A stretch of 64,000 nt of DNA from Tsukamurella paurometabola (GTDB taxonomy: Bacteria > Actinomycetota > Actinomycetes > Mycobacteriales > Mycobacteriaceae): the NCBI RefSeq assembly GCF_900631615.1, contig NZ_LR131273.1:3194850-3258849 (forward strand). Direction: 5' to 3'. The notes under the pieces are model-generated. The model worked only from the letters and a program-made list of their open reading frames with translations, did no database searches and was not told the origin of the DNA. Below, piece by piece: positions 9,657-21,824 of this stretch. The translations under genes and the position numbers were made by a program. How positions within the stretch are numbered: the stretch's first letter is position 1; every line of letters starts with the position of its first letter.

Positions 9657-10805
9657 ATGGGGAGACGCCACGGTTGGGCCGTGAGTGCCGCGCTCGTCGC
9701 GGCGCTCACCGGCTGCACCACCACCGTCGACGGTGTAGCGACGGCCGGGGACCCGCAGCTCGACACCGGCGGCTACCGGGTGGGGCCGCGCGAGGTGCCG
9801 GAGCGGAAGGGCGACGACGCGATCGTGCAGATGAACATCCTCCTGTCCGACTACGTGATCGCCCCGCCCGACCTCGACGCGAAATTCGATTGGTACGCGT
9901 CCCGGCCCTATCCCAGCCTCGCGGGGTACACCTCGCAGTACAACGTTCTCGGCGCGCAGCTCGCCGATGCCGTCTCGCCCGGGCAGAAGGCCGGCGTGAT
10001 CGGCGCGTTCACGGAGTCCCGCGCCGCGGACGCCCCGACGATGGCGGTGTTCGTCATGCGCTACTCGTCGGAGGAGCGTGCCGTGAGTGCCTTCGAGGCG
10101 GCGCGAGCACTCGTGCCGGGCGGCCGCCGGCTCGGCCCCGGTGTCGTCGAGGGACCCACACCGACGTCGTTCGCGCCCGGCGTCGCATTCTGGTCCCGCA
10201 CCGCCGACTACGTGCTGTCCGCGGTGTTCCGGGGCGTCGACCGCCCGCGTGCCGAGGCCTTGGCCGCGGCGTGGTTCGAACGCCAACCCGCCCGCCTGAG
10301 AGAGGTGCCGTTCGCGGCGTCGCCGATGCCGCCCGCCGACAAGGACGGCATCATGCGGTACACCCGCCTCGACGAGGTCGGCGAGTCCGTGACGAGTTTC
10401 GTATCCGGTTACTTCTCCAACCGGGCGCTGGGCCTGGTCGCCGACGGCAGGTGGTCGGTGGGCCTGCGCACGCGGACGACGTTCCAGATCGAGCTGATCG
10501 GCGTCCAGGGTCGCAATCAGGTGATGCGCGCCGCCAGCGCGAACTTCGCCGCCGACTGGGTGGCGAACCAGGCGAGGATGTACGGGGCGCCCGGCGCGGA
10601 CGACGGAGGCCGCGTCGAGGAGCGGATCCGCGGCCTGCCGCAGTCCGTGTGCGTGTCGCGCATCGCCCTGCTCCTGCAGCAGACGAACCGGGTGTTCGCG
10701 TGCCAGGTCGCACGAGGGCGGTACATCGCCGCCGCGCACGCATCCACCCTGGCGCAGGCCCAGCAGTCCACCTCCGCCGGATACCTCACGCTGCCGCAGC
10801 CCTGA
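9657..10805 (+). CDS. Large exported lipoprotein of unknown function
   Basis: 382 residues with a short Arg-rich n-region, hydrophobic core and lipobox LTGC (Cys near residue 18), followed by TTTVDGVATAGD, the kind of start seen in many mycobacterial lipoproteins. The body has alternating helical and beta-like stretches, one Cys pair late in the chain (SVCVSR, VFACQVA) and no catalytic motif I recognise. It may belong to a large Mycobacteriales lipoprotein family of unknown role. It is the last host gene before the integrated element. Confidence 0.7.
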   Translation: MGRRHGWAVSAALVAALTGCTTTVDGVATAGDPQLDTGGYRVGPREVPERKGDDAIVQMNILLSDYVIAPPDLDAKFDWYASRPYPSLAGYTSQYNVLGAQLADAVSPGQKAGVIGAFTESRAADAPTMAVFVMRYSSEERAVSAFEAARALVPGGRRLGPGVVEGPTPTSFAPGVAFWSRTADYVLSAVFRGVDRPRAEALAAAWFERQPARLREVPFAASPMPPADKDGIMRYTRLDEVGESVTSFVSGYFSNRALGLVADGRWSVGLRTRTTFQIELIGVQGRNQVMRAASANFAADWVANQARMYGAPGADDGGRVEERIRGLPQSVCVSRIALLLQQTNRVFACQVARGRYIAAAHASTLAQAQQSTSAGYLTLPQP

Positions 10806-10845
10806 TTCCCGGGGCGCCGGCTCGCCCGCCCCGGGACAGACGAAT

Positions 10846-10884
10846 CGGCCCGCGCCGTGATCGTCGTGATCAGGGCGCGGGCCG
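10846..10884. terminator. Strong hairpin, probable original glnA1 terminator
   Basis: CGGCCCGCGCC (10846-10856) pairs perfectly with GGCGCGGGCCG (10874-10884) around a 17-base loop. No U-tract on either strand, as is common in high-GC actinobacteria. Without the element it would lie about 60 bp beyond the glnA1 stop and could serve both glnA1 and the lipoprotein gene. A second, bulged hairpin lies at 10902-10927. Confidence 0.55.
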
Positions 10885-10942
10885 ATGCGGTGGACACTCC
10901 GGACCCGGGATTCAGGATCCGCGGGTCAGTGGGCCACGAGGC

Positions 10943-10964
10943 TCACACGTCGTAGTAGAGCTCG
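10943..10964. repeat. attL core (left copy of the 22-bp direct repeat)
   Basis: Identical over 22 bp to 21803-21824, the last codons of glnA1. Read on the minus strand the copy still spells ELYYDV and a TGA stop, a remnant of a glutamine synthetase C-terminus. Similarity continues imperfectly for about nine bases (7 of 9 match) into 10965-10973. Confidence 0.85.
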
Positions 10965-11069
10965 GACCCGTACCTGCGGCTTTGGTGAAGCGAGCATCGG
11001 TGGGGAGTCGGAATACCGCGAGGTCAGAGCGTGACTAACGATGGGTGGTGACTGGCAGTGCTGAATCTA

Positions 11070-11090
11070 CTGCGGGCCATCTGCGGGCGA
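11070..11090 (+). repeat. Integrase arm-type site pair, left arm
   Basis: CTGCGGGCCA (11070) and CTGCGGGCGA (11081) form a tandem pair with an 11-bp period, about 105 bp inside attL. The same pair with the same period occurs at 21746-21766 near attR. Arm-site function is inferred. Confidence 0.55.
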
Positions 11091-11160
11091 TCTGGTGTGA
11101 CACCGCAGCTTGCGCTCGTTCCACCCGAACGAGTCGGTGCTTCGCAGTACCGTGCTCGGC

Positions 11161-11604
11161 ATGAAGAGCACGGAGTGGGCGCCCCTGCGCCGCACAGCAG
11201 AACCGAAGGTCGACCCGACGAAGAATGACGGCCTGTACCAGGCCATCATGCCGCTCAGCGGCGTGGCCCCCGACGAGTGGGTATCGAACTTCAACGAGGG
11301 GATGAAGGCGAACGGACTGCGTGCGAACTTGAGCCACAGCGGGCGGCGGCACAACATCTCCCTCACGACCACTGAAGACGCGATCGAGCGTGATGTCGAC
11401 GCGATCGACAAGGCCATCGAGAGCGCGAACCGCAACTACGAGACCAACCACCTCGAGGTGCTGCGCGCGAGGGAGGAGCGCAAGGCGCGCGAGGCCCAGG
11501 AACGCGAGGATGCCCTCGAGCGTGTCCGTGGCATCGCGGCCCGTCTCACCCCTCCGGCCGGGCCCGGTGCTGCACCGGAAGACCCTACCGGCGGCCAGTG
11601 GTAG
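11161..11604 (+). CDS. Element-borne hypothetical protein with C-terminal coiled coil
   Basis: 147 residues, not recognised. The N-terminal half is a compact mixed region (PLSGVAPDEWVSNFNEGM, then a Lys/Arg-rich LSHSGRRHNISLTT). The C-terminal half is highly charged and probably helical coiled coil (EVLRAREERKAREAQERE), with a short disordered Pro/Gly tail. ATG 11161 lies seven bases after a TACCGT box (11148-11153), so a leaderless start is likely and the gene appears to have its own promoter, opposite to the main operon. Its place between the arm sites and the end of the main operon is where satellites often carry accessory cargo. No function is claimed. Confidence 0.6.
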   Translation: MKSTEWAPLRRTAEPKVDPTKNDGLYQAIMPLSGVAPDEWVSNFNEGMKANGLRANLSHSGRRHNISLTTTEDAIERDVDAIDKAIESANRNYETNHLEVLRAREERKAREAQEREDALERVRGIAARLTPPAGPGAAPEDPTGGQW

Positions 11605-11639
11605 TTCGGAGGGGCGGAACGTAGGCGCGGGGCGCACGG

Positions 11640-11846
11640 TTACGAGGTCGATGGTGCCGTGTCGATGTTCACCGATCGGACCTCGCGGATCCCGTGGTGC
11701 ACCTTCTCCGACCACACGCATCGATCCTCCGCCGTGTCCCACACCTCGTACAGGCCGAGCCCGCTCTCGCGGACCTCGTAGCTGTTGCCGATGTAGACCT
11801 GCTGGTGGCCGTCGAGCTGCAGGGTGATTCGTCGTCTCTCAGTCAT
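11640..11846 (-). CDS. Small element-borne hypothetical protein
   Basis: 68 residues, not recognised. The sequence is beta-rich: RRITLQLDGHQQVYIGNSY, then YEVWDTAEDRCVWSEKVHHG, a pattern like a small single-sheet fold. ATG 11846. It converges on the gene at 11161-11604 with 35 bp between the stops. Codon third positions are mainly G/C, as in neighbours, which supports coding. It lies beyond the terminator of the long leftward operon and so is probably transcribed separately. Confidence 0.5.
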   Translation of the reverse strand: MTERRRITLQLDGHQQVYIGNSYEVRESGLGLYEVWDTAEDRCVWSEKVHHGIREVRSVNIDTAPSTS

Positions 11847-12121
11847 GCCCGGAGAGTAGCCCCGAGCCCCGACTCGTTCAGGTTCATCAGGCGGTTTCTA
11901 CGACCTGCTGCTTCGGCGCCGGGCGCGGCTGCAGCCCTTCATGCCAGGCAACGCGCGTCGCGTGTCCGATTCGAGCGCACGACACACGGGCCGCGTGCAC
12001 GCGACAGCACCACGCCCGGTTGGATCGCGTCCCAGCACGACGAAACCGGGGCCTGGATCAGCTCTCGGAGCCGCCATCGTGCCAGTTCAAGGCCAGAAAC
12101 GGCCCCCGCTCGCGCCGCCCG
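11847..12121. other. Gene-free stretch in the element
   Basis: I see no convincing gene here on either strand. The short open frames have poor codon bias. The stretch probably holds the promoter of the small gene ending at 11640 and separates it from the terminator of the main operon. Confidence 0.4.
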
Positions 12122-12154
12122 TAAAAAAAGGGACCTGACTACCGGCCAGTCAGG
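12122..12154 (-). terminator. Intrinsic terminator of the long leftward element operon
   Basis: On the minus strand CCTGACT pairs perfectly with AGTCAGG (7 bp, 7-base loop; 12134-12154) and is followed by TCCC and seven T residues (12123-12129). It is the only classic U-tract terminator I found in the window. Its stem overlaps the stop codon of the CheR-like gene. Confidence 0.85.
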
Positions 12155-12773
12155 CTGTGGGGTGGTCGGATTTTTCGGGCCGGGGGGTGAGGATGGTGTC
12201 TCCGGGGACGCGCTTGTCGGTGAACAGGTCGGGGATGCCGGCGGGGGTGATGGGGTGGAGGTTCCGGTCGAGTAGGTCGGCGCCGCCGAGCAGTAGGAGC
12301 CCGTTCGGGGTGAGGCTGTCGGCGATGGTGTGTGCGGCGCGCTGCTGGGCGTCGGGCGTGAGGTGGCGCCATACGTTGCGGGCGAGGACGACGTCGTACC
12401 GGCCGGGTGCGGGGTCGTCGGTGCCGAGTGCGCTCACGGCGAACGTGACGCGGTCGCGGATCGCGGTCCGCGGGTGCCAGCGGTTCTTGTGGCCGATGAG
12501 CCAGCGGTGGAGGTCTGGGTCTTCGGTGTCGTTGATGCTGCGGCTGGTGTAGGCGGCCTGGGTCGCGGCCCTGATGTGCTGCCGGTTGATGTCGGTGCCG
12601 TGGACTGTGCCGGGGATGCCGGCGCGCTCGAGGACGATCGCCATGGAGTAGGCCTCCTCGCCGGTTCCGCAGGCCGCGCACCACACGGATGCTGGCCGGT
12701 CGAGTGTGGCGAGCGTGTGGGCGGCGTATTCGAGGTCGCGGTGTAGTCGGAACCATCCGGTGACGATGGTCAT
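12150..12773 (-). CDS. CheR-like SAM-dependent methyltransferase
   Basis: 207 residues with the features of the CheR methyltransferase catalytic domain: WFRLHRDLEYAAHTL at the start, the SAM-binding WCAACGTGEEAYSMAI, GTDINRQHI, an A-x-x-A-A-Y segment, YDVVLARNVWRHL (CheR proteins have a similar RNV block) and NGLLLLGGAD. CheR enzymes methylate glutamates of chemoreceptors, but this protein lacks the N-terminal helical domain, and the element has no chemotaxis genes, so the real substrate is unknown. ATG 12773 overlaps the stop of the upstream CmoA-like gene by four bases (ATGA). It is the last gene of the operon. Confidence 0.75.
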   Translation of the reverse strand: MTIVTGWFRLHRDLEYAAHTLATLDRPASVWCAACGTGEEAYSMAIVLERAGIPGTVHGTDINRQHIRAATQAAYTSRSINDTEDPDLHRWLIGHKNRWHPRTAIRDRVTFAVSALGTDDPAPGRYDVVLARNVWRHLTPDAQQRAAHTIADSLTPNGLLLLGGADLLDRNLHPITPAGIPDLFTDKRVPGDTILTPRPEKSDHPTA

Positions 12774-13450
12774 TGGGTGACCGCCAGGACACCGCGGAAG
12801 CCGAGGCGTCGATGCACCTCGTGAGTCTCGAAGCCTGCCTCGTTGAGTGCGGCGTCGCTGTCGCGGTCGGTCATGCAGTGCATCACTCCGCGGAGGCTGG
12901 TGGACTTGCCGAGGATCTGCTCTGCGGTGAGTCCTTGGCTCGTCTTGAAGTCGTGGTAGAGCTGGGTCTCGATGTCCTGGGCGAACGCTGTGGCGGCCCG
13001 TACCTTCTCGTAGACGATCAGGGCGCCGCCGCGGCGTAGCTTGGCGGCGATCGCGCGGTACAGGGTGCGGCGTTCGTCGGCGGTGAGGAACTGCACCACG
13101 TGGTAGGCGATCACCAGGTCGAGGGGGCCGGGCGGTAGGTCGGTGGTGGCGTCTCCGACTGCGAACGTGGCGGCTGTGGTTCGGCGTCGGGCTTCGGCGA
13201 TCATGTCGGGTTCGATGTCGAGGCCGTGCACGGGCGTTCGTGGGTGCCGGGCGGCGAGCTGGCCGGTGAGGGTGCCGGTGGAGCATCCGGCGTCGACGAT
13301 GCCGGCGCCGGTCGCGAACCAGTCCGACAGGGCGAGGACGAGGTGGTGTCCGTGGTGGTAGTCCGGGATGCTGCGTGCGGCGTGGTCGTCGAAGGTCTCG
13401 GGCGTCGGGGAGGCGAAGCTCCAGCGGCGCTGTGAGGTGGGTGTCGTCAT
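12770..13450 (-). CDS. CmoA-like SAM-dependent methyltransferase
   Basis: 226 residues of class I methyltransferase fold: DAGCSTGTLTGQLA (motif I), GLDIEPDMIAEARRR (motif II), VIAYHVVQFL, GGALIVYEK. The overall pattern, including an N-terminal SIPDYHH, YHDFKTSQGL, a conserved VMHCMTD and AGFE, follows tRNA carboxymethyl-pathway protein CmoA, which makes carboxy-SAM. Aligned from memory with E. coli CmoA, the arginine (Arg199) that holds the extra carboxylate appears replaced by Ala in SDAALNEAGF, so ordinary methyl transfer is more likely. Substrate unknown. It overlaps the CheR-like gene. About 216 bp containing a strong hairpin separate it from the capsid module. Confidence 0.75.
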   Translation of the reverse strand: MTTPTSQRRWSFASPTPETFDDHAARSIPDYHHGHHLVLALSDWFATGAGIVDAGCSTGTLTGQLAARHPRTPVHGLDIEPDMIAEARRRTTAATFAVGDATTDLPPGPLDLVIAYHVVQFLTADERRTLYRAIAAKLRRGGALIVYEKVRAATAFAQDIETQLYHDFKTSQGLTAEQILGKSTSLRGVMHCMTDRDSDAALNEAGFETHEVHRRLGFRGVLAVTQ

Positions 13451-13475
13451 CGGGGGTCCTCGGCTTGGTGGTGGG

Positions 13476-13521
13476 AAGCCCCCGACTGCTGGCCTGGGAG
13501 GGGTTCAGCGGTCGGGGGCTT
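13476..13521. terminator. 11-bp perfect hairpin between capsid and methyltransferase modules
   Basis: AAGCCCCCGAC (13476-13486) pairs with GTCGGGGGCTT (13511-13521), loop 24 bases. There is no U-tract. It could attenuate leftward transcription from the capsid genes into the methyltransferase pair. A structured leader for those genes is the alternative. Confidence 0.5.
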
Positions 13522-13666
13522 CGGTCACGGGCGCTGGTGAGCTGCCTGGCGAACTCCGGGGAGACCCGTGTCTCGCTCTACCATCGGTCCGCGGTGTCCT
13601 GCTGGCGACCAGGGGACCTGTGCAGGTGCGGTGGCGTTGACGCCCGTGAGGTTCAGGGGGGCAGGG

Positions 13667-14197
13667 CTATCGGACCCACCCGGGGGCGCCGGTGTCGTCG
13701 TCGGTGTCGACGCTGTGCCCGATCTCGCTCATGGGTACCGCGGTCTCGCGGGGGATGGACGCGAGGACCTGCTTCATGGCGGGGTCGGCGGCGCAGAGGG
13801 TGATCCAGTGCTGTCGGCGGCCGCGGGTGATCTTGCCCTGCCGTACGGCGTCGTCGACGGCTGCCTCGATGTCGGCCTTGGCGGCTGCCGCCTTGATCTG
13901 TGCGCCTTCGGCGGCCTGGGCCTTGAGGGCGTTGAGGCTGTCGCGGTCGATGACCTGCATGCCGATGCGGCCGGCGGCCGCGGCGATCGCGGACGGCTTG
14001 CCGACGGTCGCGGCTTCGCTGGTCGCGAGGTCGGAGACGGCGGCGATGACCTCGTCGGCGCTGGCTTCGTGAGCGAGGCCGAGGGCGGCGAGGAGTGCGC
14101 CCCACTGCTCGGGGGTGATCTCCGGGGGCTCGATGGGCTCCGGCGTGGCGGCCGGGTCGAGGGTGGGGTCCGCGGGTGCGGTGTCCTTGGTGGGCAT
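13667..14197 (-). CDS. Phage scaffold-like protein (Mu I/Z C-terminal type)
   Basis: 176 residues. An acidic Pro-rich N-terminus (DPAATPEPIEPPEITPEQ) precedes helical repeats: ALGLAHEASADEVIAAVSDL, a central Ala-rich LNALKAQAAEGAQIKAAAAK, then VDDAVRQGKITRGRRQHWITLCAADP. This run (helix, Ala-rich linker, then G-K-I-T-x-x-x-R followed by AADPA) resembles the C-terminal scaffold domain of Mu-like protease I proteins. Here it is a separate gene located after the capsid gene, so protease and scaffold functions appear split. ATG 14197 lies 10 bp after the capsid stop. Confidence 0.65.
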   Translation of the reverse strand: MPTKDTAPADPTLDPAATPEPIEPPEITPEQWGALLAALGLAHEASADEVIAAVSDLATSEAATVGKPSAIAAAAGRIGMQVIDRDSLNALKAQAAEGAQIKAAAAKADIEAAVDDAVRQGKITRGRRQHWITLCAADPAMKQVLASIPRETAVPMSEIGHSVDTDDDTGAPGWVR

Positions 14198-14207
14198 GGC
14201 GGGTTCC

Positions 14208-15089
14208 TTACGCGAGGCCGTTGATGAGCTTGACGGCGGCGGGCTTGTTGACGGCGAACGCGGGCACGGCGTAGCTCTGCACCCACGTGGAGCGGGTGGC
14301 CTCGTCGCGCCAGGTGGTGACGGTGACGGGCTTCTCGAAGGCGATGACACCCGCCTCGCCGGCCTGGGCGACGAACGCGGACCCGACGGGCACGAGGGTG
14401 TTGGAGACGAGCTTGAGGCCGGCGCCTTCGAGCATCTTCCCAATGTCCTCGGCGTAGGCGGTGCGCAGAGCCGCGGCCTGGGTCGGGTGCACGACGAGCG
14501 TGTCGTGGACGACGCCGAGCTCCTCGAGGTCGGCGGCGAGCTGCGCGGCCGCGAAGTCCGCAGTCGGTCGGGACGCCGACGGCGTGATCTGGTCGAGAGG
14601 CCCGTCGAGGACGAGGCTGCCCCAGCTGTGACCGCTGACGGTCGACGCGGGGTCGTCGTCGAGGGCGTCGAGGAGCACCGACAGCGCGCGGGTGTCGAGC
14701 TTGCGGGCGATCCGGTTCGCGAGCTGCGTGGTCTGCATGTCCAGGTAGGACACATCGTTGCGCTCGATCTGCTCGTCGGTGATCTTGAACTTGCCGCCCC
14801 AGTCCTCGACGCGGGCGAGGCGCTGCTCGGGGTCGACGCCCTCGACGACCTTGTACTCCTGGCCGGGGGTCCGCTGCTCGACGTCGGAGCTGTACTGGTC
14901 GGAGGCCCGCAGGACCTGGTACAGGACGCCGCCGCCTTCGACGGGGTTGCCGAGCGAGTGGAAGAAGTTCGGGGCGACGAGCTGGGTGTCGGCGATCTTC
15001 GCGATCTGGTCGCGGATGGCGGTCGGGTGCTTGAGCGCGGCGTCGACGGTGAGCGTGCGGCCGGTCAGCGTGGGGAGCAGGGTAGGCAT
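14208..15089 (-). CDS. Phage major capsid protein
   Basis: 293 residues. It begins TLTVDAALKHPTAIRDQIAK followed by FFHSLGNPVEGGGVLYQV, a start shared with actinophage major capsid proteins of the HK97 fold, and ends with a beta-rich domain (AVIAFEKPVTVTTWRDE, then an SYAVPAFAVNKPAAVKLI tail). A long helical spine-like section lies near residues 110-150 (RKLDTRALSVLLDALDD). It sits between the decoration protein and the scaffold gene. No encapsulin features or cargo enzyme are next to it. ATG 15089. Confidence 0.8.
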   Translation of the reverse strand: MPTLLPTLTGRTLTVDAALKHPTAIRDQIAKIADTQLVAPNFFHSLGNPVEGGGVLYQVLRASDQYSSDVEQRTPGQEYKVVEGVDPEQRLARVEDWGGKFKITDEQIERNDVSYLDMQTTQLANRIARKLDTRALSVLLDALDDDPASTVSGHSWGSLVLDGPLDQITPSASRPTADFAAAQLAADLEELGVVHDTLVVHPTQAAALRTAYAEDIGKMLEGAGLKLVSNTLVPVGSAFVAQAGEAGVIAFEKPVTVTTWRDEATRSTWVQSYAVPAFAVNKPAAVKLINGLA

Positions 15090-15103
15090 GTCGTGGGTTC
15101 CGT

Positions 15104-15481
15104 TCAGTAGAGGGAGATTTCGGCGACGCCGTTGCTGCTGGCGGCGGTGACGGCGTATCCGATGGCGACACCGGTGGTCTTGGTGACGACACGGCCGGCG
15201 GTGCCGACCTCGACCTCGGCGCCGGGGTCGATCGCACCTCCCGCGGTGACCCGGAGGACACCATCACGGGCGACGCCGACGAGGTCCCCGACTGCGGCGT
15301 CGTCGACGGCGACTCCGAAGACGCGGCCGCCGGCGGTGGCGTGGGCGACGGACAGGTTGCCGCCGGAGGCGCGGGCGGCGGAGATGAACACGAGGCGGCG
15401 GGCGGTGACCGCGGCGGTGGCCTGGGCGGTGACGTCGGCGCCGGGTGCGTAGACGCGAGGCTGCGGGATGGGAGTGGACAC
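15104..15481 (-). CDS. Capsid decoration protein (DUF2190-like)
   Basis: 125 residues, Gly/Ala/Val-rich and predicted all-beta: VTAQATAAVTARRLVFISA, GVAVDDAAVGDLVGVARDG, AGGAIDPGAEVEVGTAGRV and IGYAVTAAS. This is the usual pattern of DUF2190-type head-stabilising proteins, which bind capsid surfaces and are encoded just before the capsid gene, as here. Start GTG 15481 follows an AAAGG ribosome site. The stop lies 14 bp before the capsid start. Confidence 0.75.
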   Translation of the reverse strand: MSTPIPQPRVYAPGADVTAQATAAVTARRLVFISAARASGGNLSVAHATAGGRVFGVAVDDAAVGDLVGVARDGVLRVTAGGAIDPGAEVEVGTAGRVVTKTTGVAIGYAVTAASSNGVAEISLY

Positions 15482-15492
15482 GGTTGGACCTT

Positions 15493-16116
15493 TCAGTCGT
15501 TCCAGCGGTTGAGCCGGGCCCGGCGGGCGGCGGCGAGTCGTACCCGGTCGCGGGTGACGTTCTGCGGGGAGCGGGAGGCGGCGACGAAGTCGCGGAGCTC
15601 GGCGAGGTTCCCGATCGCCGGGGCGGTGGCGCCGAGCAGCGCTAGGCCGGTGAGCACGAACGGCCAGACGGTGCCGTCGGCGTCCTCGTAGTCGAAGGTG
15701 GCTTCGAGGCTGCGGTTCGGGAAGTGCGATGGCGCGCTGTCGGCGACCCACTGCGGGACCCCGGCGAGGTCGCCGATGAGGACCTGCCCGCCTTCAGCGA
15801 CGCGGAGGTTGTCCACCCACCCGATCGACGGGGAGCCGTCGAACCGGGGGTCGTAGTGGCCGACCTTGAGGACGGGCTTCGGGTGCACGCCGGCCTTGAA
15901 CGCTCGGACCGCCTCGGCGAAGTCGTCGCTCGTGAGTGTCGTGCGGCCGGTGCTGGCCTCGAAGGTGCCGGCGCGGCCGATCTCGACGCCGCGGATGGTG
16001 ACCCGCTTAGGCGGCGCGGCGCTCCGCTCGGGCGACGACGTCCGCGGAGAAGACGAGCCAGCGGCCGCCAGCGCGGAACGCGGGTAGGGTGCCTCGTCGG
16101 ACGAGCGCGCGGACAC
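15493..16116 (-). CDS. Prohead protease (Mu I-like), start uncertain
   Basis: The conserved part starts VTIRGVEIGRAGTFEASTG near 16002 and continues VLKVGHYDPRFDGSPSIGWV, SHFPNRSLEATFDYED, LTGLALLGATAPAIGNL. These are typical of phage head proteases of the Mu I type, which cleave the scaffold during capsid maturation. His in KVGHYDP and Ser in PNRSLEA are candidate catalytic residues. No ATG, GTG or TTG exists between the stop of the upstream HTH gene (16007) and the conserved domain. The nearest in-frame candidate is GTG 16116, giving 207 residues with a 110-bp overlap with the HTH gene, and is used here. A non-canonical start near 16000 is possible. Confidence 0.65.
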   Translation of the reverse strand: MSARSSDEAPYPRSALAAAGSSSPRTSSPERSAAPPKRVTIRGVEIGRAGTFEASTGRTTLTSDDFAEAVRAFKAGVHPKPVLKVGHYDPRFDGSPSIGWVDNLRVAEGGQVLIGDLAGVPQWVADSAPSHFPNRSLEATFDYEDADGTVWPFVLTGLALLGATAPAIGNLAELRDFVAASRSPQNVTRDRVRLAAARRARLNRWND

Positions 16117-16402
16117 CGTCCGGGGTGATCCCGAGGATCCGGGCCGCGTCCGCGGTGTCGAGGAGGTCATACGGTCGAGGATCGTCGTTCTGTGCTCCCG
16201 GTGCTGGATCTGTCGCGCCTACCGAATGTCCCTGTCGCGTAACGGGCGTCGAAACGCGACGGAGGCGGTCGATGAACGCTTCGGCGCGCGGTGAGCGGCG
16301 GATCCCGTGGCGCGTCAGCGCGGTCTGCGTCTCGGTGAGGACGTCGAGCAGGTAGCGGATCTCGCTGTCGGTCAGGATGATCGCGTCGAGACGTTCAGGC
16401 AT
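16007..16402 (-). CDS. Small MerR/excisionase-type HTH DNA-binding protein
   Basis: 131 residues in two parts. The N-terminal half is helical (SEIRYLLDVLTETQTALTRH). The C-terminal 50 residues form an excisionase-family winged helix: LLDTADAARILGITPDGVRA followed by LVRRGTLPAFRAGGRWLVF, the usual 'helix-turn-helix then R-G-x-L-P-x-x-R-x-G-x-R-W' layout. Because a separate Xis-like protein lies beside the integrase side of the switch, this one more likely regulates the operon or the capsid genes just downstream. Start ATG 16402 overlaps the upstream gene stop by eight bases. Confidence 0.7.
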   Translation of the reverse strand: MPERLDAIILTDSEIRYLLDVLTETQTALTRHGIRRSPRAEAFIDRLRRVSTPVTRQGHSVGATDPAPGAQNDDPRPYDLLDTADAARILGITPDGVRALVRRGTLPAFRAGGRWLVFSADVVARAERRAA

Positions 16403-16676
16403 CGCCGGTCTCCTCGTCGGGCACCGAGTAGAGCGTGGTGAGGCGGTCACGGAGTTCGGTGGGCTCGCCGACGCCTCGCGGGAGGCGCTGCAGCGCCCAC
16501 AGCAGCAGCGGGAACACCTCTAGCATCGTCGGTTCCGCCGCGGCGAGGTCGGCGAACGCGTCCCCGGCGCCGTAGGAGTCGCGGGCGTAGCCGTGCACCA
16601 CGATGCCGAGAACAGCGCGCTCGATCCGCAGCTCGCGCCGCACGGCAGACAGCGGACGTTCGGGGTGGTCGCTCAT
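16395..16676 (-). CDS. Element-borne hypothetical protein, helical
   Basis: 93 residues, not recognised. A mainly helical acidic protein: RRELRIERAVLGIVVHGYAR, then DAFADLAAAEPTMLEVFPLL and ALQRLPRGVGEPTELRDRL. It has no Cys and no membrane segment. The ATG at 16676 overlaps the WhiB-like stop by four bases (ATGA), and its own stop overlaps the HTH start, so it is translated as part of a tightly coupled run. Confidence 0.6.
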   Translation of the reverse strand: MSDHPERPLSAVRRELRIERAVLGIVVHGYARDSYGAGDAFADLAAAEPTMLEVFPLLLWALQRLPRGVGEPTELRDRLTTLYSVPDEETGDA

Positions 16677-16990
16677 GCTGCGGGACTTCCTTTCGCGGGG
16701 CGGCCCGGTGCGGCCGGGAGGTTGGGGCGGCGGCCGGCGACGACACCGGCGGGCCGCTGTGTGGGGGTGAGCTGGGCCGCCCAGGCGGTGCACTCGGCCA
16801 GCGCGGGGCAGGTGTGCCGGCAGATACGGGCGGCGGCTTCGTGGCGGCGGCGGATGACGTGGGGCGGCTCGGTCTGCCCTGCGGGGGCGAACAGGTCGGT
16901 CTGCCCGATGCAGGCGGCGCCGGCCAGCGGTGCGGAGCCGGTGAGGATCCGCGTGAGGAGCCGGATCGCGCCCTCCTGGTCGTAGCTCAC
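16673..16990 (-). CDS. WhiB-like Fe-S transcription regulator
   Basis: 105 residues. It has the four-cysteine signature of WhiB proteins: AACIGQTDLF near residue 27, then CRHTCPALAEC (C-x3-C-x5-C) near residue 60, followed by WAAQLTP and a Gly turn AGVVAGRRP. WhiB proteins hold a [4Fe-4S] cluster and bind the primary sigma factor; several actinophages encode them, and they can alter host cell division or superinfection. GTG 16990 overlaps the upstream stop (GTGA). In this element it could tune host or helper promoters; that is inference. Confidence 0.8.
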   Translation of the reverse strand: MSYDQEGAIRLLTRILTGSAPLAGAACIGQTDLFAPAGQTEPPHVIRRRHEAAARICRHTCPALAECTAWAAQLTPTQRPAGVVAGRRPNLPAAPGRPAKGSPAA

Positions 16991-17415
16991 CGCAGACCCG
17001 CCAAGACGATCAACGGCAGCGAGATCAGCGCGAGGGTGCGCCGGTCGTGGGGCAGCCAGTGAGCCGCGGTGGGTGGCTGCCGGACTCCGTTTACCCACTC
17101 ACCGCATCCACACTCGCCGGTGAACGCGTGACCGCAGTCGAAGTAGAAGCCGTAGGAGCGAACCAGTGCACCCGAGTACGTGTCCAGGCCGACCAACTCG
17201 ACCCTGCTGGCCCGAACCGCTGGCCCCGTGCGCGCATACGCCCAATCCGGAACCCTTGGGCCGTTGCCGGGCCGCACGCGTCCGAACGCGTGGAACTCCT
17301 CATCAGGCATCGCGGTGTCGAGTTGGAGGTACACCGACTTGGTGATCTGGCGGTTGCCGACCTGGAGGACGCGGACCTCAGCGGTCAGCGTCTCCACGTT
17401 TGCGGTCGTGGTCAT
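16987..17415 (-). CDS. Hypothetical protein with Cys-rich segment and C-terminal hydrophobic tail
   Basis: 142 residues, not recognised. The first 90 residues look beta-rich (VETLTAEVRVLQVGNRQITK, SRVELVGLDTYSGALVRSYG). A Cys/His cluster CGHAFTGECGCGEW near residue 98 could bind a metal. The last 15 residues (LALISLPLIVLAGLR) are hydrophobic and could be a tail anchor. ATG 17415 overlaps the stop of the replication-like gene by four bases, and its stop overlaps the WhiB-like start, so it belongs to the coupled operon. Confidence 0.6.
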   Translation of the reverse strand: MTTTANVETLTAEVRVLQVGNRQITKSVYLQLDTAMPDEEFHAFGRVRPGNGPRVPDWAYARTGPAVRASRVELVGLDTYSGALVRSYGFYFDCGHAFTGECGCGEWVNGVRQPPTAAHWLPHDRRTLALISLPLIVLAGLR

Positions 17416-18245
17416 GCGGATCTCTCCTTCAGGTACTTCGCGGCCGCGTGGCCGTCGGTGGTGAGGGCATCGACCCACGTGTGCCACTCGTCGGGGAGTG
17501 GCCCATAGGTGGCCTCGATGAGGGCGTAGAGCGCGTGCAGGCTGTGATCCGTGCTCAGGTCCGGGGCGTCGACGGTCGGACCGCCGATCAGCTGATCGAG
17601 GCTCCGGAGCACCACGCTCACGACTGGCGCCCAGTCCGTGCGTCTTTCCGCGGTGGTCGCAGACCACCGCCGCATCAGCGCGTTGACGACGTCGAGCCGC
17701 AGATGGAGATCCGCAGCCTGCTTCGTCAGCGAGGCCGTCGTCAGCCCGTCGGGCGGGAACAGCCGCTTGCCGTCGGCGCCGACCGAAGCGCGCGCGCTCG
17801 CGCTGGATACTTCACTGGGTACTTCTATGGATACTTCGGGGGACATGGGTGTCCCTACCGAGGTGACACCGGCGTCCCTAGGTAGGGACACGGGTGTCCC
17901 TAGGGTCGCTGGTGTCCCTAGGGACGTGGGTGTCCCTACCTCGGGGATGACAAGTTCGTACCGCGTCGACCGGTTCGGGCCGCCCGCGACGCGCACGATC
18001 CACCCGGCCGTCTCGATGTCGGTCAGGTGCCGTTGCACGTGCCGACGGCTCAGGCCCGAGTCGTCCGCGAGGGTGGTCAGGGACGGCCAGCAGATGAACC
18101 GGCCGTCCTTCAGCTCCGCCCGGTCAGCCAGCGCCCACGCGACAGCGTGCAGCCGATGCGGGAGCTTCGCGCCCTCCGATCGGTGGATCGCGTTCGACCA
18201 CTCGTAGCCCGTGGTCGGGTGTCGGTGGGCGCTGGCGGCCGTCAC
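17412..18245 (-). CDS. Putative replication initiator with winged-helix N-terminus
   Basis: 277 residues. The N-terminal 100 are a helix-turn-helix domain of the kind found in phage replication proteins: HRLHAVAWALADRAELKDGR, then FICWPSLTTLADDSGLSRRH, VQRHLTDIETAGWIVRV. A low-complexity middle (repeated GTP, SLP and EVS units) is encoded by an iteron cluster at 17805-17938. The C-terminal part is helical (AADLHLRLDVVNALMRRWSA). Having the origin repeats inside the initiator gene recalls lambda O. No helicase or primase motif is seen, so it would need host or helper functions. Start GTG 18245. A plain transcription regulator is the alternative. Confidence 0.65.
   Translation of the reverse strand: MTAASAHRHPTTGYEWSNAIHRSEGAKLPHRLHAVAWALADRAELKDGRFICWPSLTTLADDSGLSRRHVQRHLTDIETAGWIVRVAGGPNRSTRYELVIPEVGTPTSLGTPATLGTPVSLPRDAGVTSVGTPMSPEVSIEVPSEVSSASARASVGADGKRLFPPDGLTTASLTKQAADLHLRLDVVNALMRRWSATTAERRTDWAPVVSVVLRSLDQLIGGPTVDAPDLSTDHSLHALYALIEATYGPLPDEWHTWVDALTTDGHAAAKYLKERSA
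17805..17938. repeat. Iteron cluster, candidate replication origin
   Basis: Three copies of GG(A/G)TACTTC at an exact 12-bp period (17805, 17817, 17829) are followed by five copies of GG(T/C)GTCCCTA at 17848, 17871, 17893, 17911 and 17929 (18-23 bp apart). One inverted copy TAGGGACAC lies at 17883-17891 and a partial inverted copy at 17919-17925. All lie in the middle of the putative initiator gene. Such spacing is typical of initiator-binding sites. Confidence 0.65.
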
Positions 18246-18592
18246 TCGCCGGCCTCCCGTAGTCGCTCAGCGCATGGCGTCTCCCTCGTGCAGGCCCACA
18301 CCCGCTGGGGGCGGCCGGGCCGACGACGGGAGTCCGTCCACCCGACGTGCGCGATCCGGCGCTGATCCGACACCCGATGGAACAGGGCGCCCAGCACCGA
18401 GGGGTGATCGTCGAGCCACTCGCTCGTCTCGGTGCCCACGTGGTCGTGGAGGTCGTCGGCGGTGAACGTGCGCCCCGTGCCGCTGAGCGTGTCCAGGGCC
18501 TCCCTGGCGGCGTTCAGGTACCCGATGCCCAGGACTGTGGTGGCGGCGGCCTCAGCGGCGCTCTCGCCGTCCCCGCGGTCGCGCTTGGTCAC
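18242..18592 (-). CDS. Element-borne hypothetical protein, possible winged-helix
   Basis: 116 residues, not recognised with certainty. An Ala-rich helix (AAEAAATTVLGIGYLNAARE) precedes a segment that reads like a winged-helix unit: FTADDLHDHVGTETSEWLDD, HPSVLGALFHRVSDQRRIAH, VGWTDSRRRPGRPQRVW. The last part with RPGRPQRVW resembles the wing of DNA-binding domains common in phage early genes. GTG 18592 overlaps the upstream stop (GTGA) and its stop overlaps the replication gene start, so it is co-translated with that gene. Confidence 0.6.
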   Translation of the reverse strand: MTKRDRGDGESAAEAAATTVLGIGYLNAAREALDTLSGTGRTFTADDLHDHVGTETSEWLDDHPSVLGALFHRVSDQRRIAHVGWTDSRRRPGRPQRVWACTRETPCAERLREAGE

Positions 18593-18924
18593 GTTGCCTC
18601 CCGCAGCTTCTCGGGCCCGTCGATCGCGTCGCACTCGTCGGCGAGGATCCGCATCGATTCCGCCAGCGCGCGGGCGTCCTTCGCGAGCAGGGACCAAGGT
18701 CCGAACTCGATCCGCGTTCCGAGCCCCGACTGGTACACCGCCGTCCCTGCGATCCACTGGAACTCGTCCTGTCCGTCGTGGCACAGCTGGTGCCAGTGCC
18801 GCTCAAGGAACCGCCGCTCGCAGCCGTCAATCGTCGGGTGCGCGGGGTCCTCGGGGAGCTCGTCCCACTTCGCGGGGATCGGGGCGTGCGGCGGCCGCGG
18901 GGCCTCCCAGAATCGGTTCGTCAC
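18589..18924 (-). CDS. Element-borne hypothetical protein
   Basis: 111 residues, not recognised. It opens with a Pro-rich stretch (EAPRPPHAPIPAKWDELPED), then a Cys/His/Trp-rich part (GCERRFLERHWHQLCHDGQD) and a helical tail (DARALAESMRILADECDAID). The Cys and His could bind a metal, but no known finger pattern fits. ATG 18924 lies two bases after the upstream gene's stop; the downstream overlap is GTGA. Confidence 0.6.
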   Translation of the reverse strand: MTNRFWEAPRPPHAPIPAKWDELPEDPAHPTIDGCERRFLERHWHQLCHDGQDEFQWIAGTAVYQSGLGTRIEFGPWSLLAKDARALAESMRILADECDAIDGPEKLREAT

Positions 18925-18926
18925 GG

Positions 18927-19607
18927 CTACACCTCCTCTCGGGCGGCGTCGACGAGGAGCAGCAGCGCGCGGGCAGTGGCCGCGGCCTCATCGAGCGACA
19001 GCACGAACCGTGCACGATCGTGGTGCGGCACCGGCTCCCCGTCTCGGTAGAAGCCCAGGCGGGCCAGCCGAATTCCGGGCTCCCGATTGCCCCCCGCCAT
19101 CTGAACCAGGCTGGCCGACACGTACGCCGCCTTGAAACCGCCCTCGTCGGTCTTCTGCCCATACGACCGGCTGAGCGGGATCTTCAGCGGCGTGCTGGTC
19201 CACTGCACGTCGAACTTCGAGATCGCCTTGCTGCCGCGCTCACCGAGGTGATCCCGCGACGGATCGGACCAGTGCGGGCGGTTCTCCTCCAGCCACGGAT
19301 GCTGCGCCCCAGGTTCGACCTCGATCTGTGGGTCGTACTCGGCGCGGAACCGATCGAGGGCCTTGAGTGCCGGGCTGTCGTCGGCTGGCGGGTGCGCGGC
19401 CGCCTCCCGGGCGGCGGCGTCGAGGATCGCGACGAGCTGCGTGCGGCGGTCAGGGTGCTTCTCCCGCGCCACGGCGGCGATCCGGGCCAGCTGGGCGGGA
19501 GTGAACTCCGACTCGGGCAGCATCTCGAGGAGCTGGTCCTCGACGGCCGCGACGGTGCGGAACTGGATCGGCTCGTCGAGCTGGACGAGGGCGGTAGACT
19601 CGGTCAT
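18927..19607 (-). CDS. Element-borne hypothetical protein (226 aa)
   Basis: Not recognised. The N-terminal 80 residues are helical and charged (VEDQLLEMLPESEFTPAQLA, RRTQLVAILDAAAREAAAHP). The C-terminal half is mixed and polar with a recurring strand pattern (SKFDVQWTSTPLKIPLSRSY, GFKAAYVSASLVQMAGGNRE, ARLGFYRDGEPVPHHDRARF) and ends in an Ala-rich helix. Its position just after the Xis-like gene, where satellites and phages often carry recombination or early functions, is suggestive only. ATG 19607 overlaps the stop of the small reading frame upstream (ATGA). Confidence 0.6.
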   Translation of the reverse strand: MTESTALVQLDEPIQFRTVAAVEDQLLEMLPESEFTPAQLARIAAVAREKHPDRRTQLVAILDAAAREAAAHPPADDSPALKALDRFRAEYDPQIEVEPGAQHPWLEENRPHWSDPSRDHLGERGSKAISKFDVQWTSTPLKIPLSRSYGQKTDEGGFKAAYVSASLVQMAGGNREPGIRLARLGFYRDGEPVPHHDRARFVLSLDEAAATARALLLLVDAAREEV

Positions 19608-19756
19608 GATCGGTTCTCCTTCTGGGTGTTCTGGTCGTTGCCCTCGGTGGTCTTCTTGGTGGGAGAGGCCGAGGGCTTCGTGCTGAGTAGGGGCGTGTTG
19701 TCGTCCTCGATCAGGCCGAGGTCGCAGTGGTGTTCCTGGGGGCGGTTGAAGTCCGT
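19604..19756 (-). CDS. Small coding-like frame without a standard start codon
   Basis: A 50-codon frame with strong G/C bias at third positions reads TDFNRPQEHHCDLGLIEDDN and goes on with a Ser/Thr/Lys-rich tail ending QKENRS. Its TGA overlaps the ATG of the next gene, as elsewhere in this operon. There is no ATG, GTG or TTG in frame. It begins right after the Xis-like stop (19758-19760) in the next frame, so a frameshift fusion to that protein, a rare start codon, or a decayed gene are all possible. Confidence 0.45.
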   Translation of the reverse strand, partial: TDFNRPQEHHCDLGLIEDDNTPLLSTKPSASPTKKTTEGNDQNTQKENRS

Positions 19757-19757
19757 C

Positions 19758-19961
19758 TCAGGCGGTCTCCTGCTCGCTCCGAGCGGAGATCCAGCGCTCG
19801 ACGACGTCGACGTCGTACAGGATCTTCCGCTTGCCGAGTACGACGGCCGCGGGTCCCGTGCCGCACTGGCGCCAGTAGCGCCACGTGTTCACGGAGATTC
19901 CGTAGCGCTCCTCGAGTTGCTTCGCAGACAGCAGGGTCCGTGTGGTGGTGGGGTACGTCAT
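19758..19961 (-). CDS. Excisionase/AlpA-like small HTH protein
   Basis: 67 residues: LLSAKQLEERYGISVNTWRY followed by WRQCGTGPAAVVLGKRKILY and DVDVVERWI. This is the standard layout of the MerR-like excisionase fold (HTH, then a wing with K-R-x-I-x-Y and a D-V-x-x-W-I helix). It is the first gene of the leftward operon and is divergent from the repressor gene, the classic place of xis in phage satellites. It probably bends DNA for excision and may also regulate the integrase. ATG 19961. Confidence 0.75.
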   Translation of the reverse strand: MTYPTTTRTLLSAKQLEERYGISVNTWRYWRQCGTGPAAVVLGKRKILYDVDVVERWISARSEQETA

Positions 19962-19984
19962 GAGGGAGGTCCTTACGGGAGTGG

Positions 19985-20065
19985 ACACGTAACGTGTTCG
20001 AGCGCGAACACGTGTTATGTCTAGCACGGAGTGTGTTTCGTGGCAAGCACGTGATGTGTGCACAC
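19985..20065. promoter_or_regulatory. Operator cluster in the divergent xis-repressor intergenic region
   Basis: Palindromes crowd this 147-bp gap (19962-20108): ACACG-TAA-CGTGT (19985-19997), ACGTGTTCG-AGCG-CGAACACGT (19992-20013), AACACGTGTT (20007-20016) and GTGTGCACAC (20056-20065), all built on an ACACGTGT-like core. They are good candidates for binding by the repressor, controlling both operons. Confidence 0.65.
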
Positions 20066-20108
20066 GTGGCGTGTTGTAGGCGGGTGGCTGAGTGTGTCAT
20101 CGTTGGGC

Positions 20109-20627
20109 ATGGCGACTAGCGACGAACGGTTTGGAGCTGCGGTGCGGCGGCGCCGCGACGAGCTGGGGCTCTCACGCAATCAGCTCGCGGTGATTGCACA
20201 GGACTCCGGTCTGACCAACTTTCATCCGACGACGATTGCTCGCGTCGAATCGGGTGAACGCGCAGTGAAGCTCCACGAGGCGATGGCGCTTGCGTCGATA
20301 CTGAACACGACGCTCGAGCGTCTCACCGTCGACAACGAGAGCCATGCGACCGAGGTTGCGGACATCGAAGACCAGCAGGGCGTAGTAGAAGGTCTCGCTC
20401 CCGAAATCGCCGACGTTGTAGGGCGATTCGAAGCCGAGCAGCGGAAGCTCTCCGCCATGCTGTCGGGGCTTTCTCCAAGCGCGCGGGTGCTGCTCACGCC
20501 AGAGCGCCTCGAGGACATCGACTACTGGGCCAATCACGCAGATCCAACCGACGCGCTCGACTACGGGAATTCGATCCGTACGGCGGCACAGTGGAGACGA
20601 GACCATGAGCCAGCAGAGGAGGAATAG
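20109..20627 (+). CDS. Cro/C1-type HTH repressor of the element
   Basis: 172 residues. The N-terminal 70 are a classic HTH_3 domain: FGAAVRRRRDELGLSRNQLA, then FHPTTIARVESGERAVKLHE and ALASILNTTLERLTV. A C-terminal helical region (IADVVGRFEAEQRKLSAMLS) probably mediates oligomerisation. No LexA-type Ser-Lys autoprotease motif is seen, so derepression by self-cleavage is unlikely; helper-protein binding, as in PICIs, would fit. ATG 20109 is chosen because the upstream ATG 20058 would start inside the operator. The stop overlaps the integrase start by 23 bp. Confidence 0.8.
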   Translation: MATSDERFGAAVRRRRDELGLSRNQLAVIAQDSGLTNFHPTTIARVESGERAVKLHEAMALASILNTTLERLTVDNESHATEVADIEDQQGVVEGLAPEIADVVGRFEAEQRKLSAMLSGLSPSARVLLTPERLEDIDYWANHADPTDALDYGNSIRTAAQWRRDHEPAEEE

Positions 20628-21780
20628 GCGCGCTGGCGTCGAGGACCGCTGGCGCAGGGCCGACGGCACGCCCAGCGCGAAGGCCGGTAAGGGCTCGCGC
20701 TGGCGCGCCCGCTACGTCGACGCAGGCGGTGGTGAGCACGAGAAGCTATTCGCCCGGAAGGTCGACGCGCAGAAGTGGCTCGACGGCCAGACCGCGGCAA
20801 TCGTCGGCGGCACCCACATCGCGCCCCGCGACGCCGCCCTGACGTTCCACGAGTGGGCCGAGCAGTGGCTCGCCGGCTACGCCGTGAACCGGAAGTCGAC
20901 CCTGCGGCAGGCCAAGAGCCACGTGAAGCGGATCGAGGAGACGTTCGGCGACACGCCGATCCGCGACATCCGGCCGTCGTCGGTCAAGACCTGGGTCGCG
21001 GCCCTGCAGCGCGAGGGCATGGCGGCCTCGACGGTGCACGCCTACCACTCGCGGCTACGCCGGATCCTCGACGACGCCGTCCACGACGGCTACCTGCCGC
21101 GCAACCCGTGCTCGAAGCGCACCGCCCCGCCGATGGGAAAGACCAAGGTGTACGTCGCGACCACCGAGCAGGTGTGGGCGGTCGCCGACGCGGTGCCGGC
21201 GCACTACCGGGCCGCGGTGCTGCTCGGCGCGTTCGCCGGATTGCGCGTCTCCGAGGCCGTCGCGGTACGGACCCACGAGGACGTCGACTTCATCCGCGGG
21301 ATCGTGCACCCGCGCGAGCAGTGGACCGCCGACGACCCGCGGTCACCGCTCAAGACCGAGGGCAGCGAGGCGGCCGTGCCGATCCCGAACGAGCTCACGC
21401 TCGAGCTGGCCGCATCGGTGAAGCGCTGGCCGGGGGAGACGCTCGTGACCGACGGCGCGACGGGCGCGCGGGTCGGGCCGTGGCGCATCGAGGCGGCGAT
21501 CCGCGACGCTCGCAGCACCGTCGAGGGGCTGCCTGAGACGTTCGTCTTCCACGACCTGCGGCACTACTTCGCGAGCGCGCTGATTGCCGGGGGAGCGGAC
21601 ATCAAGACCGTGCAGGCCCGGCTGCGGCACGCGAAGGCCAGCACCACGCTCGACGTGTACGGGCACCTGTTCCCCGATGCAGACGAGTCGACCCGCGCCG
21701 TGATCGCTGGGATCTTCAAGGCGCGGGCCGACTCGTTGCGGACTGCTGCGGGCCAACTGCGGGCCACCGACCAGGAATGA
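20605..21780 (+). CDS. int: Tyrosine site-specific integrase
   Basis: 391 residues. An AP2-like arm-binding N-terminus (SRWRARYVDAGGGEHEKLFA), a SAM-like core-binding domain (TFHEWAEQWLAGYAVNRKST) and a C-terminal catalytic domain are in order. Catalytic residues seen: Arg in FAGLRVSEA (near 215), His-x-x-Arg in HDLRHYFASA (near 315-318), the second His in RLRHAKAST and the nucleophile Tyr352 in LDVYGHL. The stop is 22 bp from the glnA1 stop, so the target is the glnA1 3' end. The last codons contain the right arm-type repeat pair. Confidence 0.92.
   Translation: MSQQRRNRRAGVEDRWRRADGTPSAKAGKGSRWRARYVDAGGGEHEKLFARKVDAQKWLDGQTAAIVGGTHIAPRDAALTFHEWAEQWLAGYAVNRKSTLRQAKSHVKRIEETFGDTPIRDIRPSSVKTWVAALQREGMAASTVHAYHSRLRRILDDAVHDGYLPRNPCSKRTAPPMGKTKVYVATTEQVWAVADAVPAHYRAAVLLGAFAGLRVSEAVAVRTHEDVDFIRGIVHPREQWTADDPRSPLKTEGSEAAVPIPNELTLELAASVKRWPGETLVTDGATGARVGPWRIEAAIRDARSTVEGLPETFVFHDLRHYFASALIAGGADIKTVQARLRHAKASTTLDVYGHLFPDADESTRAVIAGIFKARADSLRTAAGQLRATDQE
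21746..21766 (+). repeat. Integrase arm-type site pair, right arm
   Basis: CTGCGGGCCA occurs at 21746 and 21757, an 11-bp period, inside the last codons of the integrase and 37 bp from attR. It matches the pair at 11070-11090. Confidence 0.55.
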
Positions 21781-21795
21781 CCTGGTCAGCGGCCC
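21761..21795. terminator. Hairpin between the integrase and glnA1 stops
   Basis: GACCAGG (21769-21775) pairs with CCTGGTC (21781-21787) around a five-base loop holding the integrase stop. An outer GGGCC/GGCCC stem (21761-21765 and 21791-21795) extends it. It may end both convergent genes and replace the native glnA1 terminator. Confidence 0.5.
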
Positions 21796-21802
21796 GGAGA
21801 GG

Positions 21803-21824
21803 TCACACGTCGTAGTAGAGCTCG
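21803..21824. repeat. attR core (right copy of the 22-bp direct repeat)
   Basis: Identical to 10943-10964. It encodes the last residues ELYYDV and the TGA stop of GlnA1, so integration rebuilds the gene's end rather than breaking it. Confidence 0.85.

Follow-up and report, generated by a model that had tools for sequence, protein, structure and literature searches.

Organisation of the element

The stretch analysed here (the window) comprises 64,000 nucleotides, positions 3194850-3258849 of the 4.70-Mb single-contig genome of Tsukamurella paurometabola (NZ_LR131273.1), and contains beside the glnA gene a small integrated element, a probable phage satellite of the phage-inducible chromosomal island (PICI) type that carries its own capsid genes. 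An earlier note on this DNA described about 10.9 kb bounded by a 22-bp repeat at glnA, and a 10,860-bp unit was indeed found between exact 22-bp direct repeats (10943-10964 and 21803-21824). The 22-bp core has exactly two copies in the window and none in shuffled sequences. The features of the element are given below from right to left, with the evidence for each assignment in brackets; HTH denotes helix-turn-helix and ORF open reading frame.

21803-21824: attR, 22-bp core that forms the 3' end of glnA, its last codons and stop codon (sequence)
20605-21780, plus: tyrosine integrase, its 3' end facing the glnA 3' end (PF00589 3.4e-15; phrog_1 1.2e-60)
20058-20627, plus: HTH repressor-like protein, start uncertain, 20142 by the gene caller (PF13560, PF01381)
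19758-20063, minus: Xis-like HTH_17 protein, gene caller start 19961 (PF12728; phrog_66 excisionase)
18927-19607, minus: orfA, without a family, 51% match in the element of T. conjunctivitidis
18242-18924, minus: orfB and orfC, small proteins (orfC matches phrog_21939)
17412-18245, minus: replication initiation O-like protein (HTH_36 1e-9; phrog_391 2.3e-11)
17848-17938: iteron-like repeats within the replication gene, candidate origin (6 matches, at most 1 mismatch)
16987-17415, minus: orfD, no family
16673-16990, minus: WhiB-like protein (PF02467 3.4e-5)
16395-16676, minus: orfE, conserved among several elements of Tsukamurella and Gordonia
16007-16402, minus: HTH_17 protein directly before the head module, at the position of the phage portal (PF12728 3.8e-12; 19-sequence alignment)
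15493-16116, minus: head maturation protease domain alone, start uncertain (phrog_3894 7.7e-54, profile 4-153 of 458)
15104-15481, minus: capsid cement/decoration protein (PF09956 6.3e-12)
14208-15089, minus: major capsid protein, MCP (phrog_1650 4.4e-60; PF25209 3.6e-16)
13667-14197, minus: scaffold domain, the C-terminal part of the phage protease-scaffold protein, downstream of the MCP (phrog_2976 2.7e-24, profile 235-376; phrog_3894, profile 273-437)
12770-13450, minus: methyltransferase cargo (phrog_4752 9.8e-45)
12150-12773, minus: CheR-type methyltransferase cargo (PF01739 4.4e-29)
12113-12192, minus: putative cos (cohesive-end) packaging site, cut predicted between 12140 and 12139 by analogy with phage Schnabeltier (model R1 68.4 bits, as a training member)
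11640-11846, minus: orfF, small ORF
11152-11604, plus: orfG, ORF without assigned family
10943-10964: attL, 22-bp core (exact match to 21803-21824)

The integrase and repressor genes on the plus strand diverge from a long leftward operon, as the earlier note had stated. Read leftward, the integrase and repressor are followed by the Xis-like HTH gene, small genes, the O-like replication gene, WhiB, orfE and the HTH protein, and then by the head genes (protease, cement, MCP and scaffold), a pair of methyltransferases, the non-coding motif and two small ORFs. The Xis, replication-like, WhiB, capsid and methyltransferase genes named in that note were recovered by Pfam and PHROGs, and its iterons by repeat counting, which gave six matches to GGTGTCCCTA with at most one mismatch, one of them on the opposite strand and all within the replication gene, a number that one of 100 whole-window shuffles also reached. 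Two points had escaped the note, the phrog_3894-type protease with its scaffold domain separate and downstream of the MCP, and the cos-like packaging site at 12113-12192.

The HTH protein at 16007-16402 matches phrog_57 at E 0.0023 and has no match to the profile of the small terminase subunit (TerS), a profile which is also blank in the control loci; judged by its sequence, the protein could equally be a regulator or a small terminase. The two methyltransferases appear to have been inserted at a cargo position, because in the T. spumae element the stretch after the scaffold and the cos region are contiguous, whereas in the window the two matching blocks are split by these genes. For both methyltransferases PADLOC gave only mad2, which was not taken as evidence of a defence function. 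The five weak microRNA matches of Rfam over the element were all below gathering scores and were taken as chance.

Missing phage genes

The absence of portal, terminase, tail and lysis genes, reported in the earlier note, was upheld for the portal, the large terminase subunit (TerL), tail and lysin. Pfam and PHROGs scans of the element proteins gave no portal, TerL, tail or lysis gene, so that the set of morphogenesis and lysis genes is incomplete in the sense used for PICIs. A tblastn search with proteins for head, packaging, tail and lysis from prophiGD51-1, Schnabeltier and GMA4 matched only protease, cement, MCP and scaffold in the element, and in full prophages of the genus these queries did detect TerL, portal and tail genes. 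The single match to the Pfam portal family in the genome lies at 3.31 Mb, outside the window.

Profiles built from 23 portals and 24 TerLs gave no match in 25 element loci of the family described below, where a TerS-like gene was found in one locus (L053) and a connector-like gene in two (L056, L052). The large ORFs of ten related elements gave in Pfam AAA_25, DUF3631, DUF3987, D5/DUF5906, HTH or nothing, and no terminase. The tape-measure profile missed a gene in L056 that was seen by blastp, and the absence of tail genes rests also on tblastn, ORF sizes and Pfam. The hallmarks of P4-like satellites are the P4 alpha primase, Sid and Delta/Psu; no such family name appeared in the general Pfam and PHROGs scans of the element, which were not searches aimed at these genes.

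The packaging site

The 80-nt non-coding motif downstream of the scaffold gene consists of a C-rich tract, an A-rich core, CTGACT, a loop ending in GGTA, GTCAG and a T-run. On its sequence and placement this motif is a cos packaging site, because it precedes TerS in phages and because three phage genome ends fall inside it. The motif model R1, trained on 13 elements, scored at least 55 bits in 14 of the 25 element loci, of which 13 had trained the model and one (L060) had not; four loci (L055, L057, L065, L037) end too early for the cos to be judged. Among 96 other loci the model gave 19 matches at E 0.5 or better, distributed over 18 loci. In all 13 of these loci that were examined, which include copies of one prophage (identical motifs in L017 and L118, identical MCPs in L095 and L245), the motif lies 37-335 bp ahead of a TerS match, and TerL and portal come next. 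When IMG/VR was scanned with a short pattern, 17 contigs were returned, including the two that carry L095 and L104; TerS adjoins the motif in 16, and one contig is cut at that point. Phages searched at the DNA level with just the cos region gave no match, whereas the motif model did match.

The deposited linear genomes of phages Schnabeltier and Opie end with ...CGCGGTA and begin with GTCAGG, and that of Rem711 ends with ...GCGGTGA and begins with GTGGGAATTTT; as compared by eye, all these ends lie inside the motif. In Opie the gene at the TerS position (L213, 166-516) is annotated as a HicA-like toxin, in conflict with its Schnabeltier counterpart, which is annotated as terminase small subunit.

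Among 16 genomes of the genus, with 150 candidates scored per genome, eight model matches were obtained. Five are in elements (that of the window, T. spumae, T. conjunctivitidis, G006 and the 3' end of a T. sputi element on contig C222), two stand before TerS in full prophages, and one lies at the end of T. sputi contig C77 without TerS. This last cos-like copy (L246, about 10116-10197), the second in T. sputi, is found beside an unassigned gene and perhaps belongs to another element broken by the assembly. In T. conjunctivitidis the cores of the element and of a full prophage are almost identical, CTGACTGCCCC(C)GGTAGCCAGGGATTTTTTTAC, which makes element and prophage a candidate satellite-helper pair.

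Related elements, their size and selection

The MCP query matched in 5 of 16 genomes of the genus, some of the matches being full prophages, and, within the order, in 14 of the 397 genomes sampled, where the weak matches were not all checked. The MCP-profile scan of contigs of species-representative genomes gave 24 loci, and 21 of them (L043-L062, L065) have the shell module without a TerL or portal match, several being cut by contig ends. The family covers Tsukamurella, Gordonia, Williamsia, Mycobacterium and Mycobacteroides. One of its members, L060 (CAJCHX010000239.1), is titled Acidobacteriaceae bacterium and matches G006 of the genus Tsukamurella, which is probably a binning or naming error. 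The remaining loci are L066, with HTH protein and an MCP broken into two frames only, and L063 and L064, which are full phages with TerL, portal and unsplit protease and show the lowest MCP identity (39%). Among 80 IMG/VR loci there were three more shell-type members; 72 of the 80 have TerL or portal, and five have neither in the stretch covered and do not follow the satellite order. The single-protein scan of IMG/VR with the MCP gave no match, and the protease profile did find loci.

The order HTH-protease-cement-MCP-scaffold is constant across the family, and the integrases and large replication genes vary. The protease was found upstream of the MCP in 18 of the 21 loci, L052, L058 and L060 starting too late, and the scaffold downstream of the MCP in 19, L055 and L065 being cut by contig ends. 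For the shared REARRANGEMENT, tblastn, with PHROGs in agreement, gave the element protease and scaffold as two genes, the second after the MCP. In Schnabeltier a single 480-residue gene before the MCP holds both protease (match at residues 19-152) and scaffold (312-455). None of the full phages used for comparison (L019-L021, L038, L039, L063, L064) showed a scaffold behind the MCP; phages of the GMA4 type have an extra scaffold gene, positioned before the cement gene. Three loci (L036, L037, L066) have HTH protein and MCP without a protease, cement or scaffold match, and of these L036 carries the cos and L037 is cut soon after the MCP. In L053, the M. ahvazicum element, a TerS-like gene (11465-11893; 4.7e-10) follows the scaffold; this is the largest sized element, 12.6 kb.

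The 13 repeat-bounded elements (the window element and 12 relatives) measure 9,753, 10,178, 10,336, 10,578, 10,581, 10,590, 10,618, 10,678, 10,860, 10,869, 11,472, 11,554 and 12,613 bp, that is 9,753-12,613 bp with a median of 10,618, and the sizes did not change when the repeat search was widened from some kb past the scaffold to the full locus. Left out of the sizing were L048, L055, L056, L057 and L059, which have no clear repeat, and L036 (9.4 or 15.2 kb); the sized L050 and L066 hold a second integrase within the span, and the repeat of L062 is only 15 bp. The phages with related MCPs are records of 40-56 kb. Such a narrow size despite varied gene content suggests a packaging limit, and by volume scaling a genome of about 10.6 kb could fit a head of triangulation number T=3.

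The ratio of nonsynonymous to synonymous substitution (dN/dS) lay between 0.06 and 0.53 in each of the 23 gene pairs, from five element pairs, for which it was defined, and one further pair was identical. In the MCP tree (39 rows) the family's 11 phage MCPs group together as a 100/100 clade that excludes all elements, and the element MCP is about 40% identical to phage MCPs. A single clade of satellite MCPs was rejected, since the tree needs three label changes and branching among the elements is mostly unresolved; only the phage clade is claimed.

The integration site

A tRNA gene stands at the element end in 16 of the 21 family loci scanned, whereas the window element is at glnA instead. Related integrases adjoin glnA in 17 of 19 integrase loci other than that of the element itself. 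This conserved integrase family (L148-L166) puts many differing elements without this capsid module at glnA across Mycobacteriales, and glnA as a satellite-specific site was rejected for this reason. In 18 regions of 2.3-19.9 kb around related integrases outside the genus there was no portal, TerL or MCP match; weak TerS-like matches were found in L201 and L202 and weak tape-measure-like matches in L192 and L201.

Among the genus-mates, glnA has no adjoining integrase match in G011, G013 and G001, and partial integrase matches lie beside it in G008 and G014. Directly left of attL, at 10829-10942, a short scar looks like the 3' end of an integrase of the glnA type, and the site was probably used before by an older element. 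A 74% homolog of a kinase gene of the window (9047-9586) lies close to the remnant integrase beside glnA of G008.

Interpretation and alternative explanations

The element is probably an intact-looking integrative PICI-like satellite, which would be packaged at its cos by the terminase of a helper phage into a small shell of its own and would be completed with the portal and tail of that helper. The gene content, the missing portal, TerL and tail genes, the recurrence, the narrow size, the purifying selection and the cos type on which this reading is built are read directly from the sequences. An own shell with borrowed portal, motor and tail is the simplest arrangement, because the cos and the shell genes are present and TerL and portal are absent.

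In the proposed cycle the tyrosine integrase would place the element at glnA, where the repressor would hold it. When a helper phage with a terminase of the Schnabeltier/Rem711 type enters or is induced, Xis and Int would excise the element and the O-like protein would replicate it from the iterons. The late genes would build a complete shell from MCP, cement protein, protease and free-standing scaffold; the helper TerS/TerL would then recognise and cut the element cos and fill this presumably small capsid through the helper portal, and the helper connectors, tail and lysis genes would complete the particle. Mobilisation of the element by a helper is thereby a prediction of the model.

Several observations weigh against such a cycle or against the evidence for it. 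A shell whose MCP is about 40% identical to phage MCPs would have to accept a foreign portal. In the genome of the window there is no resident helper with this cos and no second match of the cos model. Among the control loci, 5 of the 6 with a portal were recovered by the portal profile, L186, whose portal Pfam finds, being missed; the TerL profile found 3 of 6 loci, where tblastn found TerL in 6 of 6; and the TerS profile found none of the control loci. The cos is weak (27-34 bits) in L047, L048 and L050, with the match upstream of the head module in the latter two, marginal in L052 and L053, and missing from L056, L066, L076, L078 and L079. The deposited ends of MalagasyRose and GMA4, phages with related MCPs, are not in the motif. 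Finally, connector-like and tape-measure genes follow the scaffold in L056 of M. gordonae (11375-15569), so that element and phage modules mix; by its gene content L056 may be a hybrid or transitional element.

As for a resident helper, both prophage regions of the same genome were considered and set aside, neither having a match to the cos model. These regions are L014-L016 (contig C1, about 46-72 kb) and L186 (C1, about 3.31 Mb), one of which is GMA4-like with an MCP 36% identical to that of the element. Non-resident helpers are known for other satellites, as described in PMC11389934.

The alternative that survives best, although it is unlikely, is a satellite whose capsid proteins poison or resize the helper capsid, giving mixed shells as with Ccm of SaPIbov5 and not a shell wholly its own. 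It is favoured by the three loci with MCP and without the other shell genes, among which L036 with its cos is the best case, given the truncation of L037 and the broken MCP of L066, and by Ccm itself, described in PMC8569155 as a capsid-protein homolog of a cos-type Staphylococcus aureus pathogenicity island (SaPI) that sits in pentamers. However, the shell-type members have also retained protease, cement and scaffold, with purifying selection in those pairs that were tested, and a resizing subunit could do without these genes; moreover, the divergence of the MCP from phage MCPs is unfavourable for co-assembly.

Much less probable is that the 80-nt motif serves only as a transcription terminator after the late operon and that packaging does not use this site. 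The short stem followed by a T-run would agree with a terminator, but in phages the motif lies ahead of the terminase genes, the deposited ends of three phages fall inside it, the loop GGTA is conserved and not only the stem, and the eight matches in 16 genomes are all in elements, at a contig end or before TerS.

A defective remnant of a full prophage that lost its portal, terminase, tail and lysis genes is highly improbable, since, in spite of the homology of the head genes to those of tailed phages, the tape-measure gene of L056 and the broken MCP of L066, the same gene set with the protease-scaffold split occurs in five genera at different sites and with different integrases, the size is narrow, the MCPs lie outside the phage clade, the ORFs are intact with dN/dS below 1, and no full prophage stands beside glnA in the 18 regions.

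The satellite with its own shell is preferred over a reduced prophage because the shell-only set recurs with different integrases and sites, and because of the narrow size, the purifying selection, the MCPs outside the phage clade and the phage-type cos. This is the side that the earlier note had taken. It had asked whether the same gene set recurs without portal and terminase, which is what the 21 of 24 MCP-profile loci display, and it had named as refutation a full prophage at glnA with the head module plus terminase, portal and tail, which was not seen in the regions around related integrases.

In a wider sense, it is reasonably probable that these elements represent a widespread satellite class of Mycobacteriales standing between capsid thieves and capsid-formers, in which the entire shell is own, with a scaffold freed from the protease and a head for about 10.6 kb, perhaps T=3, and in which portal and motor of the helper would be engaged via cos; its members would range from MCP only to the full kit, L053 adding a TerS-like gene. 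Thus a capsid gene in a small island is turned into a mechanistic prediction, in which the shell comes from the satellite and portal, motor and tail come from a phage sharing the cos. The cos motif also names the likely helpers, namely the prophage in the same strain of T. conjunctivitidis and the isolated phages Schnabeltier and Rem711. The satellite biology of mycobacteria and their relatives, so far proposed from sequence in the account of PMC10654092, becomes directly testable, and the structural question is raised of how a portal from another source fits a diverged shell, and whether head size is set by the freed scaffold.

Comparison with known systems

Among the titles and abstracts listed from the open-access literature, where a relevant paper could be missed, none covers satellites with this cos, this capsid or Schnabeltier-type packaging. 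In PMC10654092 candidate Mycobacterium PICIs are presented as regions with an integrase and an MCP, including phiRv1 and phiRv2, some with scaffold, helicase or terminase genes; their dependence on a helper is proposed there, and helper induction was at that time still undemonstrated. The window element, which is not a prophage, agrees with that definition, being a small integrated element with integrase and major capsid gene. Unlike it, the Mycobacterium PICIs are described in section 9 with no mention of a cos site, of a split between protease and scaffold or of a constraint on size, and the drawn examples with tyrosine integrases are at tRNA genes and not at glnA; this comparison is made by description and not by homology to the phiRv heads. 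The earlier note knew of no description of a capsid-carrying island targeting glnA in Mycobacteriales; the glnA integrase is shared by elements without this capsid module, and capsid-bearing PICI-like elements had already been proposed in Mycobacterium (PMC10654092). A shell without portal combined with a helper-type cos is new.

Capsid-forming PICIs, by the definition quoted in PMC10690885, use their own capsid and the tail of the helper and encode portal, connectors, TerS/TerL and HNH. The window element shares with them the MCP and the head protease and is without their portal, connector and TerL genes, as judged by Pfam, PHROGs and tblastn. The Streptomyces satellites MulchRoom and MiniFlayer, as presented in PMC10690885, are likewise actinobacterial and have their own capsid genes; however, they encode TerS, TerL and portal and have no known primases, whereas the window element has a replication protein and neither portal nor TerL. 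According to the same source some satellites encode a small terminase. The cos-type SaPIs, such as SaPIbov5 with Ccm, have a capsid-protein homolog and cos-type packaging (PMC8569155), which is predicted for the element from its phage-type cos, but the element has a full shell kit of protease, cement and scaffold and belongs to Actinomycetota; this comparison, too, is made by description.

Schnabeltiervirus and other full phages have homologous protease, cement protein and MCP, and Schnabeltier shares the cos; in contrast to the element they are 40-56 kb long, have TerS-TerL-portal ahead of their head genes and encode protease and scaffold as one fused gene. In its size, in the divergence of integrase and repressor from the xis-replication operon and in its phage-type packaging signal, the window element fits the PICI.

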